From: Tenacibaculum sp. L6
Lineage (GTDB): Bacteria > Bacteroidota > Bacteroidia > Flavobacteriales > Flavobacteriaceae
DNA: 64,000 bases
NCBI RefSeq assembly: GCF_028823685.1
Contig: NZ_JAPEHZ010000003.1
Span: 1-64,000 of the forward strand
Direction: 5' to 3'
In this document: in pieces, positions 21,000 to 22,571 of the stretch
Position numbering within the stretch: the first letter of the stretch is position 1
Layout of the letters: every line of letters starts with the position of its first letter
Made by a program: the position numbers and the translations under genes
Notes under the pieces: generated by a model
Told to the model about the DNA's origin: nothing
Database searches by the model: none
What the model saw: only the letters and a program-made list of their open reading frames with translations

Positions 21000-21050
21000 A
21001 ACAAACCAGACTAACTTAATAATGGATTGATTTTAGAATCATCCAAATCA

Positions 21051-21401
21051 TCAAGAAGCTTCTTTCACAGTATAGCTAAATACAGCTTTACAGATAATAT
21101 CTTGTTTTTTTTCTTCTTTTTTTGATACTGTTATGTTTAAAACAACTTCAGTAGTACTCAATTTTTTTACATTGTTTTTAATGATAAGTTTATCATTTAA
21201 ATAAGCATTTTCTAGAAGATCAAAATCAATGCTTTTAAAACTCAAATTAGATGAGTTTTTGTGTAAACTAAGTGAAGATTGAAGATTAGACTCAATCTTG
21301 TCAAATAAGATAGAAGTCTTTAATACTTTGTTTTTGCTAACTTGTTTTTTGCTAACAACAAACTGATTTTTTATGTCTTGTGTAGTGTTTAATGATTTCA
21401 T
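21051..21401 (-). CDS. Small conserved-looking protein, unknown (weak hotdog-like resemblance)
   Basis: A protein of 116 residues, Lys/Ser-rich and without signal peptide or membrane segment. The C-terminal half (FDLLENAYLNDKLIIKNNV, then VVLNITVSKKEEKK and CKAVFSYTV) alternates like the strands of a hotdog-fold thioesterase, but the N-terminal half has no recognisable catalytic helix. The match is only an impression. The gene is isolated, with a 13-bp palindrome 52-64 bases upstream of its ATG. Codon use is like the neighbours. Confidence 0.55.
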   Translation of the reverse strand: MKSLNTTQDIKNQFVVSKKQVSKNKVLKTSILFDKIESNLQSSLSLHKNSSNLSFKSIDFDLLENAYLNDKLIIKNNVKKLSTTEVVLNITVSKKEEKKQDIICKAVFSYTVKEAS

Positions 21402-21452
21402 GATAATTATGGGTTAAGTATTAGTAATTCAGGGTCTCTGTAAAACGGATTT

Positions 21453-21465
21453 TGTACTGAGTACA
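21453..21465. promoter_or_regulatory. 13-bp palindrome TGTACTGAGTACA, operator-like
   Basis: Perfect dyad apart from the central base, 52 bases upstream of the minus-strand 116-aa gene. Could bind a dimeric repressor of that gene. The stretch 21402-21550 otherwise shows no gene. Confidence 0.35.
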
Positions 21466-21550
21466 TTACAGTTGAGGCTACATGTTTTCTAATTGAATTT
21501 CGGTACTTAAAAGTGTTCACAATGATTAAAATTTAAAATGTTAATAAATA

Positions 21551-21581
21551 AAAAAAGGTGCTTTTTGTAAAAAGCACCTTT
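21551..21581 (-). terminator. Terminator of the 44-aa minus-strand gene
   Basis: Plus-strand arms AAAGGTGCTTTTT (21554-21566) and AAAAAGCACCTTT (21569-21581). Read on the minus strand the stem is followed by TTTTTTATTTA, so it ends transcription coming from 21742. Confidence 0.8.
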
Positions 21582-21607
21582 GTAAGTTTATAGTAAAAAT
21601 TGATTAT

Positions 21608-21742
21608 TTAAAATCGATGTTTAAGTCTATTGTTTTGGGTGCTTTTGGTTACATATACGAATTGTTTACGCATGTGGGCTGTACACGAAATCGAATTGAT
21701 CGTGTTAAAAATAAACGTATATGTGCGTAAAAGCGCCTTCAT
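21608..21742 (-). CDS. Unlisted 44-residue basic small protein
   Basis: ATG at 21742, TAA at 21608. The peptide starts MKALLRTYTFIFNTINSISC, continues with TAHMRKQFVYVTK and ends LKHRF; it is basic and has no obvious signal peptide. Support is positional. TACATTTG (-7 type) ends 8 bases before the ATG, with TTTTG 22 bases further upstream. A rho-independent terminator begins 27 bases after the stop codon on the same strand. Codon use (ACG, TCG, CGC) is somewhat unlike the neighbours, and a 39-codon frame is also open on the other strand, so a non-coding small RNA is the main alternative. I do not recognise a family. Confidence 0.55.
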   Translation of the reverse strand: MKALLRTYTFIFNTINSISCTAHMRKQFVYVTKSTQNNRLKHRF

Positions 21743-21749
21743 GATGTTC

Positions 21750-21784
21750 CAAATGTAGTAAAACTTTTTAAAGATTACACAAAA
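21750..21784 (-). promoter_or_regulatory. Promoter of the 44-aa gene: TTTTG - 22 bp - TACATTTG
   Basis: On the minus strand TTTTG (21780-21784) and TACATTTG (21750-21757) match the flavobacterial -33/-7 pair with an allowed spacing. Best-formed promoter in this window. Confidence 0.6.
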
Positions 21785-21857
21785 CGGCGAATTAATTACT
21801 GTTAAAGTTTTGTAAATCTACTAGTTGTAAACGTTTAGTTAGCGTAGTTTAAATATG

Positions 21858-21865
21858 TATCTTTG
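21858..21865 (+). promoter_or_regulatory. Putative -7 element (TATCTTTG) of the HAD gene
   Basis: Lies between an upstream ATG (21855) and the ATG at 21885, so it decides the start in favour of 21885. Confidence 0.5.
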
Positions 21866-21884
21866 GTGTATAATTTTATCATTT

Positions 21885-22571
21885 ATGAATAACATTAAAG
21901 TAATATCTTTTGATGCAGACGATACGCTTTGGGTAAACGAAACCTATTTTCGTGATGCCGAAGATGATTTCGCAAAACTGTTGTCAGATTATGAAACAGA
22001 AAACAAAATCCATCAAGAATTATTTAAAAAAGAAATAGAAAACCTTAAAATTTACGGTTATGGAGTAAAAGGTTTTATGCTATCAATGGTTGAGTGCGCT
22101 TTAGAAATTTCTAACTATAAAATAGCTCCTAGAACTATGGAAGGAATTCTTGAAATAGGAAAAGAGATGTTAGAAAAACCTATAGAATTACTAGATGGAG
22201 TAGAAGAGGTGTTAGAAGAATTACACGGAAAGTATAAGTTAATTGTAGCTACCAAAGGTGATTTGTTAGATCAAGAACGTAAGTTGGCTAAATCAGGAAT
22301 TTTAAAATATTTTCACCATACAGAAGTAATGAGTGAAAAGAAAAAAGCCGATTATAAAAAATTAGTAAAACGATTAGATATTAATCCGTCAGAGTTTTTA
22401 ATGATAGGAAATTCATTAAAATCAGATGTATTACCATTGTTAGAAATTGGAGCAACAGCTATTCATGTTCCTTTTCATACCACTTGGGCACACGAAGAAG
22501 TGAGCGAAGAACAGAAATCAGATGATTATAAAACAGTATCTAATATTACTGATGTTTTAAAGTTTTTATAG
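21885..22571 (+). CDS. HAD family hydrolase (YjjG-like phosphatase)
   Basis: A protein of 228 residues from the ATG at 21885. Motif I is SFDADDTLW (nucleophile and acid Asp). Motif II is KLIVATKGD, with Thr in place of the more usual Ser/Thr. Motif III is the Lys in MSEKKKADYK, and motif IV is MIGNSLKSDVLP. A helical cap occupies about residues 20-90. Probable role: a phosphatase acting on nucleotides or sugar phosphates in the cytoplasm; the substrate cannot be read. The next gene begins directly after its stop codon. Confidence 0.85.
   Translation: MNNIKVISFDADDTLWVNETYFRDAEDDFAKLLSDYETENKIHQELFKKEIENLKIYGYGVKGFMLSMVECALEISNYKIAPRTMEGILEIGKEMLEKPIELLDGVEEVLEELHGKYKLIVATKGDLLDQERKLAKSGILKYFHHTEVMSEKKKADYKKLVKRLDINPSEFLMIGNSLKSDVLPLLEIGATAIHVPFHTTWAHEEVSEEQKSDDYKTVSNITDVLKFL

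Follow-up and report, generated by a model that had tools for sequence, protein, structure and literature searches.

The 44-codon open reading frame ORF1, located on the minus strand of the 64,000-nucleotide stretch of Tenacibaculum sp. L6 DNA that was analyzed (hereafter “the window”), is, judging from its sequence and those of its relatives, quite probably the leader peptide of a ribosome-mediated transcription attenuator that governs the two genes following it, ORF2 and ORF3. The layout of the unit, the conservation of its coding frame, and the complementarities among four RNA segments (1:2, 2:3, and 3:4) were computed directly.

All features of the unit are on the minus strand, and positions are those of the window. 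A -33-type promoter element, TTTTG (21780..21784), was read directly from the sequence; it is followed after 22 bp by a -7-type element, TACATTTG (21750..21757), that is situated 7 nt ahead of the ATG. ORF1 (21608..21742) begins with this ATG at 21742 and closes with a TAA ending at 21608. Segment 1, GGCGCUUUU (21729..21737), falls in ORF1 codons 2–5 and has segment 2 as its partner. The latter, AAAAGCACC (21638..21646), covers three codons (Lys-Ser-Thr) close to the end of the frame and can be partnered by either segment 1 or segment 3. Segment 3, AAAGGUGCUUUU (21569..21581), is the 5′ arm of the terminator, and segment 4 (21554..21566), which was obtained from the terminator scan, is the 3′ arm. 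The whole intrinsic terminator with its T run (i.e. the attenuator), AAAGGTGCTTTT-TACA-AAAAGCACCTTT, occupies 21550..21581 and lies 26 bases past the ORF1 stop. The scan was carried out on positions 21000–22500 and returned one site, compared to 0.4 ± 0.6 in shuffled sequences. ORF2 (21407..21520; 37 codons, GTG start) begins about 30 bases past the T run, and ORF3 (21051..21401; 116 codons), which codes for an unnamed protein, begins 5 bases past ORF2. An earlier note on this DNA had described the arrangement TTTTG–22 bp–TACATTTG–7 bases–ATG–44 codons–26 bases–terminator, and every part of it was found in the sequence exactly as described. The same note had portrayed a compact unit that closes at the terminator; in fact, ORF2 and ORF3 come next.

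Two further features of this region were observed. An imperfect palindrome runs across the ORF1 stop codon (21616–21602); its form in relatives is CGATTTTAAAAATCG or CGGTTTTAAAACCG, and the two sides change to match. Directly 5′ of the terminator is a spacer (21586–21594) of the type ACTATAAAC, which by eye is repeated in several genera.

The DNA stretch was matched in 11 of 59 related genomes (four of these by short stretches only) and in 19 of 166 genomes of the genus (three by short stretches only); the genome of the window is included in the first count. The ATG and the layout were retained in the 18 loci that had a full-length match (own locus included), and the order ORF1–terminator–ORF2–ORF3 was present in 18/18 of them, as well as in 22/22 named Tenacibaculum loci that were found via ORF3. 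Relatives of ORF3 were detected in 33/166 genomes of the genus, 32/397 genomes of the family (the three weakest at E values of 0.0005–0.001), and 12/395 genomes of the order, the window's own genome being counted each time. Among the family loci L048–L067, ORF1 and the terminator were found in 20/20, in the order ORF1–terminator–ORF2–ORF3 in all 20; ORF1 and the terminator were also located upstream in L098, L105–L109, and L117. In family f2 (L120–L122), ORF2 was found in two of the three loci, with L121 having the terminator followed directly by ORF3. ORF3 likewise came directly after the terminator in family f7 (L123–L128, L130, and L131). The gene after ORF3 in L048–L067 is presumably mannose-6-phosphate-isomerase-like in 10/20 and isopentenyl-diphosphate-isomerase-like in 4/20, and what we take to be a HAD-like gene is upstream in 2/20; the neighbor genes of the window are the same as at these loci.

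Two locus sets, of 38 and 53 members, were used for comparison. They were chosen for a layout that had already been seen, and they test pairing, not the frequency of the layout; the finding of the terminator at the same place in 53/53 loci pertains to a set that was selected on layout. Several loci were left uncounted: L098 (the layout is visible by eye, with the stop outside the search pattern), L127 (layout present), L131 (a duplicate locus within the L125 genome), L129 (a contig end cuts the locus), L118 (the scripted search returned it without ORF3), L068, L119, and the last two matches of the family search.

Both TTTTG and TAnnTTTG are taken here to be the Bacteroidota promoter form. A strict TAnnTTTG was located upstream of ORF1 in 32 of the 53 loci and never (0/53) in the stretch separating ORF1 from the ORF that follows. 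Relaxation of the motif (to TAnnTTT[GA] or TACATTCG) gave a match no more than 45 nt upstream of ORF1 in 48/53 loci, and the relaxed motif was present downstream of the ORF1 stop, ahead of the following ORF, in 6/53. The terminator stood ahead of the structural genes in 20/20 family loci and 22/22 named loci. ORF2 and ORF3 thus appear to be without a promoter of their own of the TAnnTTTG type, and other promoter types are possible. A reading of the region with an E. coli-type promoter was discarded, as the scan for it performed at chance level (9 found vs. 8.4 expected).

The gap between the -7-like box and the ATG was 9 nt or less in 43 of the 53 loci, with a median of 7 among the 48 having a box. 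The same short gap was found for 2 of 42 long ORFs in the window, a lenient control in that many of these ORFs may sit inside operons. Transcription in Bacteroidota starts about 5 nt after the -7 box; if that is so here, the mRNA would therefore have almost no 5′ UTR. The 5′ UTRs of Bacteroides thetaiotaomicron, according to the available portion of PMC7366714, are shorter than 10 nt in only about 3.7% of cases, and short ORFs have been noted within long ones.

From the alignments, both the coding capacity of ORF1 and its RNA pairing appear to be under selection. In a 22-row alignment of Tenacibaculum sequences (A5, from which the divergent L077 and L079 were excluded), the frame was without internal stops and had a common end point in 22/22 rows. 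All 27 gap runs inside ORF1, which cluster at about three places, were 3 bases long, and all 22 gap runs between the ORF1 stop and the terminator were 1–2 bases long. The median dN/dS for ORF1 was 0.48 (93 pairs) and the pooled pN/pS was 0.56; selection on the peptide is therefore modest. This comparison of synonymous and nonsynonymous change was one of the checks called for in the earlier note. A lack of conservation at the protein level, which the note had named among its grounds for refutation, was not borne out: the peptide found a match in 7 of 59 genomes, one of them being that of the window. The codon use, which had been described as a bit atypical, was so: the CAI of ORF1 was below that of 98% of 609 44-codon windows taken from 40 long ORFs of the window. 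A 39-codon frame had also been reported to be open on the opposite strand. Two open frames are listed there, one of 37 aa that starts with ATG and one of 42 aa that starts with TTG, neither being of exactly 39 codons. Over the full ORF1 stretch in 23 sequences (window included), the three opposite-strand frames were interrupted by a stop in 22, 23, and 23 of them. Neither ORF1 nor ORF2 had a family in Pfam or NCBIfam, the listed Pfam matches of ORF1 being below cut-off.

The whole-codon gaps and the dN/dS value, together with eight residues that are invariant among 15 Tenacibaculum sequences and the small number of acidic residues, would also be expected if ORF1 were a small basic trans-acting protein, with the terminator ending its own short mRNA and allowing some readthrough. 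We consider this unlikely. Across clades the peptides hardly align by eye, while the length, the position, and the pairing persist. Two loci bear on the matter from opposite sides. L037 has two substitutions in segment 2, Lys→Arg and Thr→Ile, which leave the duplex intact at -13.7 kcal/mol. In L041, a change of Thr to Ala retains the formal pairs with weak binding (-7.5), which counters the argument from duplex preservation. Of what the earlier note claimed, a real frame that has a promoter and a terminator to itself is supported, the frame being conserved and probably translated. The choice it offered, an independent gene or else a small regulatory RNA, was not supported; frame and terminator together have the appearance of a regulatory leader for ORF2–ORF3.

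The composition of ORF1 was examined in the 38 loci. An amino-acid-specific sensor was sought and not found, there being no run of a single amino acid in ORF1 in this set. Relative to the window's long ORFs, ORF1 was 2.1–2.8-fold enriched in Met, Cys, Gln, and His, with Gly, Asp, and Glu reduced to 0.14–0.28 of their levels there; we estimate that part of this bias is what would be expected of AT-rich random sequence. The ORF1 peptides of diverged genera have in common that Gly, Asp, and Glu are strongly depleted and that internal Met and Gln are in surplus.

The start codon of ORF2 is GTG in the window and ATG in the other 17 full-length loci, including that of the nearest relative (L029). 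The median dN/dS of ORF2 was 0.36 (67 pairs), with a pooled pN/pS of 0.56, and two helices were predicted when it was modeled alone. The C-terminus of ORF2 is Asn-Pro in 17 of 18 full-length loci, 3–7 nt before ORF3, and often Tyr-Pro in other genera. ORF2 might in turn act on the translation of ORF3, either as a leader or as an arrest peptide. ORF3 had a median dN/dS of 0.19 (28 pairs) and a pooled pN/pS of 0.26. Its similarities are weak and point to a hotdog/YbgC-type thioesterase-like protein. Against the YbgC/FadM thioesterase models it scored 18.1 vs. 141.35 and 15.5 vs. 68.7 bits, i.e. far below the curated cut-offs; a profile match to thioesterases in the PDB had an E value of 0.008; and the top Foldseek matches of a poor single-sequence model (pLDDT 65) were mostly thioesterases (best E value 0.024, none below 0.001). 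At E ≤ 0.01, no Pfam match was obtained for 21 of 22 ORF3 members, and the remaining member had one irrelevant match.

Segment 2 is complementary to segment 3 and largely complementary to segment 1, with one mismatch in the window. In the 22 Tenacibaculum sequences, 96.5% of cells were paired for 2:3, compared to 39–69% when the segments were slid against one another. Segment 3 is nearly invariant within the genus, and no two-sided changes in 2:3 occurred there. For 1:2, 78.3% of cells were paired vs. 45–53% when slid, and one column pair (11–107) was AU in 8 sequences and GC in 8. The shuffle control for 1:2 was moderate (34, 24, and 21 of 500 for three measures), and measures that count pairs or types gave 240 and 500 of 500. 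Among 26 loci from other Flavobacteriaceae, segment 2 was GCAUCUU near the end of ORF1, complementary to segment 3, in 15; AAGAUG, which could be segment 1, was found further up in 7. The genus g288 has a terminator arm reading GCGCCUUCAC or close to it, and GUGAAGGCA stands at the end of its ORF1. The strongest predicted site in L124, L126, and L128 was elsewhere in ORF1, away from the named segment 2, GUGAAGGC.

Binding of the terminator arm by the final 51 nt of ORF1 averaged -11.3 kcal/mol over the 38 loci, compared to -6.5 and -5.8 for two upstream windows. In the DNA window itself, one of the upstream control windows equaled the end of ORF1 in binding the arm (-12.6 and -12.5). When the duplex was compared to dinucleotide shuffles, p ≤ 0.05 was reached in 23/38 loci and missed in 15/38. 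In a nascent-RNA test, i.e. a fold of the RNA made up to segment 3, the probability of 2:3 was 0.56 vs. 0.15 in shuffles, and it was higher in 33/38 loci; antiterminator pairing of the leader with the 5′ arm of the terminator was thus found outside of five loci (L059, L060, L061, L123, and L124) in which the value was not above shuffles. The 1:2 test was carried out on segment 2 plus the first 45 nt of ORF1, with the segment 2 picked by the program differing in a few loci. The 1:2 probability was 0.51 vs. 0.21 in shuffles, being higher in 32/38 loci and not in 6/38. Restriction of the tests to one locus per genus (the first listed; 21 genera in three families) resulted in p values of about 7e-5, 2e-4, and 2e-4, with each pairing probability higher in 17/21; these p values are optimistic, since the genera are related. 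Dinucleotide shuffling over up to 40 ORF1 codons yielded p ≤ 0.05 in 27 of 53 loci, and synonymous recoding did so in just 16 of 53.

Terminator arms were also exchanged between loci. The 31 loci with the common arm dropped from -11.2 to -5.7 kcal/mol when given the g288 arm, and five g288 loci favored their own arm over the common one by 1.5, 2.6, 6.0, 6.4, and 6.4. For L066 and L117, the arms of which differ from the common one by one base, the common arm was bound better than their own. L048 and L066 had been considered as co-varying terminator variants; they were rejected, as the swap lent slight support for L048 (-12.3 vs. -11.2) and none for L066.

The attenuator as we picture it, with a putative leader ORF between promoter and terminator, would operate as follows; the role of the ribosome, the direction of the response, and the transcription start site are as we infer them. 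RNA polymerase would start a few bases 5′ of the ATG, and a ribosome would begin ORF1 on a nearly leaderless mRNA. Should this ribosome be on the last third of ORF1 as segments 3 and 4 emerge, segment 2 would be hidden, 3:4 would form, and transcription would halt after about 190 nt. Should the leading ribosome be delayed earlier in ORF1, the free segment 2 would capture segment 3, the terminator would be blocked, and ORF2–ORF3 would be transcribed. Segment 1 could take segment 2 away from segment 3, favoring termination.

Ribosome masking was simulated on the window RNA. The probability of 2:3 was 0.88–0.96 with no ribosome or with one at codons 1–28, 0.00 with the ribosome at codons 31–38, and again 0.79–0.83 at codons 42–45 (the stop codon). 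Such a dependence on where the ribosome sits is the logic of an attenuator. The 1:2 probability was 0.72 in ORF1 alone vs. 0.03 once segment 3 was present. For RNA up to segment 3 without a ribosome, 2:3 stood at 0.88, so the fold alone does not give termination. Because 2:3 is high both without a ribosome and with one at the stop codon, termination would hinge on timing or on early 1:2 pairing.

The three pairings by themselves form a switch, and they could thus serve a mechanism that is independent of translation (a riboswitch, or a protein or RNA antiterminator), to which the ORF would be incidental for sensing. That the start codon is close to the promoter box in 43/53 loci and that the frame accepts 3-base gaps only both argue against such a switch, which we regard as very improbable. 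The least probable alternative, that the terminated transcript of roughly 190 nt acts mainly as a trans-acting small RNA, is in keeping with the discrete promoter and terminator and with a strong fold (the window RNA was better than 200/200 shuffles; z = -4.8), and it is opposed by the codon-wise conservation of ORF1 and by the Rfam search of the 64-kb window, in which there were 0 matches at the gathering score and the sub-threshold matches, far below the cut-offs of their families, were rejected as identifications.

Ribosome-mediated attenuators are familiar from the trp, his, and ilv leaders of amino-acid operons. The ORF1 unit resembles these in having a short leader ORF, segments that would pair as 1:2, 2:3, and 3:4, and a terminator before the structural genes. 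It differs in that its target is not a biosynthetic operon, in that it has no run of regulatory codons, and in that the ORF contains both segment 1 and segment 2, which in the window are separated by about 90 nt. An attenuator of amino-acid biosynthesis was accordingly rejected as an identity, the downstream genes being ORF2 and the hotdog-like ORF3. For Flavobacterium psychrophilum, a member of the same order (Flavobacteriales), leader-peptide attenuation ahead of amino-acid operons has been proposed (PMC9723704); the mechanism class would be the same, the target differs, and no locus such as the present one is named in the available part of that source. In Sinorhizobium meliloti, the available part of PMC7298713 describes an attenuator RNA (trpL/rnTrpL) with its 5′ end at the ATG and thus a leaderless leader peptide. 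The likeness is in the leaderless start; that RNA is the leader of a trp operon and comes from another phylum. By analogy with rnTrpL (PMC7298713, as above), the terminated ORF1 transcript could have a secondary role as a trans-acting small RNA. The drug-sensing bmrCD and msrD leaders, as far as the portions of the literature at hand describe them, are alike in that the translation state of the leader controls genes without amino-acid starvation; their targets are transporters or ABC-F proteins, unlike ORF2–ORF3, and no link to a drug is known here. No description of an ORF1–terminator–ORF2–ORF3 unit was found in the open-licence literature. The mechanism class is thus a known one, while the instance is apparently undescribed and its target unusual.

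As for the signal, one tentative suggestion, which we put forward as possible and no better than doubtful, is that the attenuator reads the general status of translation (e.g. leaderless initiation or a global slow-down of elongation) instead of any single amino acid and switches on a divergent hotdog protein of an undescribed translation-stress response.

If ORF1 is indeed the leader peptide of such an attenuator, an apparent orphan small gene becomes a testable regulatory switch, and the case is a reminder to ask, for any small ORF with a terminator of its own, whether it serves as a leader before calling it a gene. The pairing logic has seemingly been kept in three families of Flavobacteriales despite greatly changed letters and peptide. 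The unnamed ORF3 family would thereby have a well-kept control region, and the signal to which this region responds, once found, would be the first handle on the function of ORF3.
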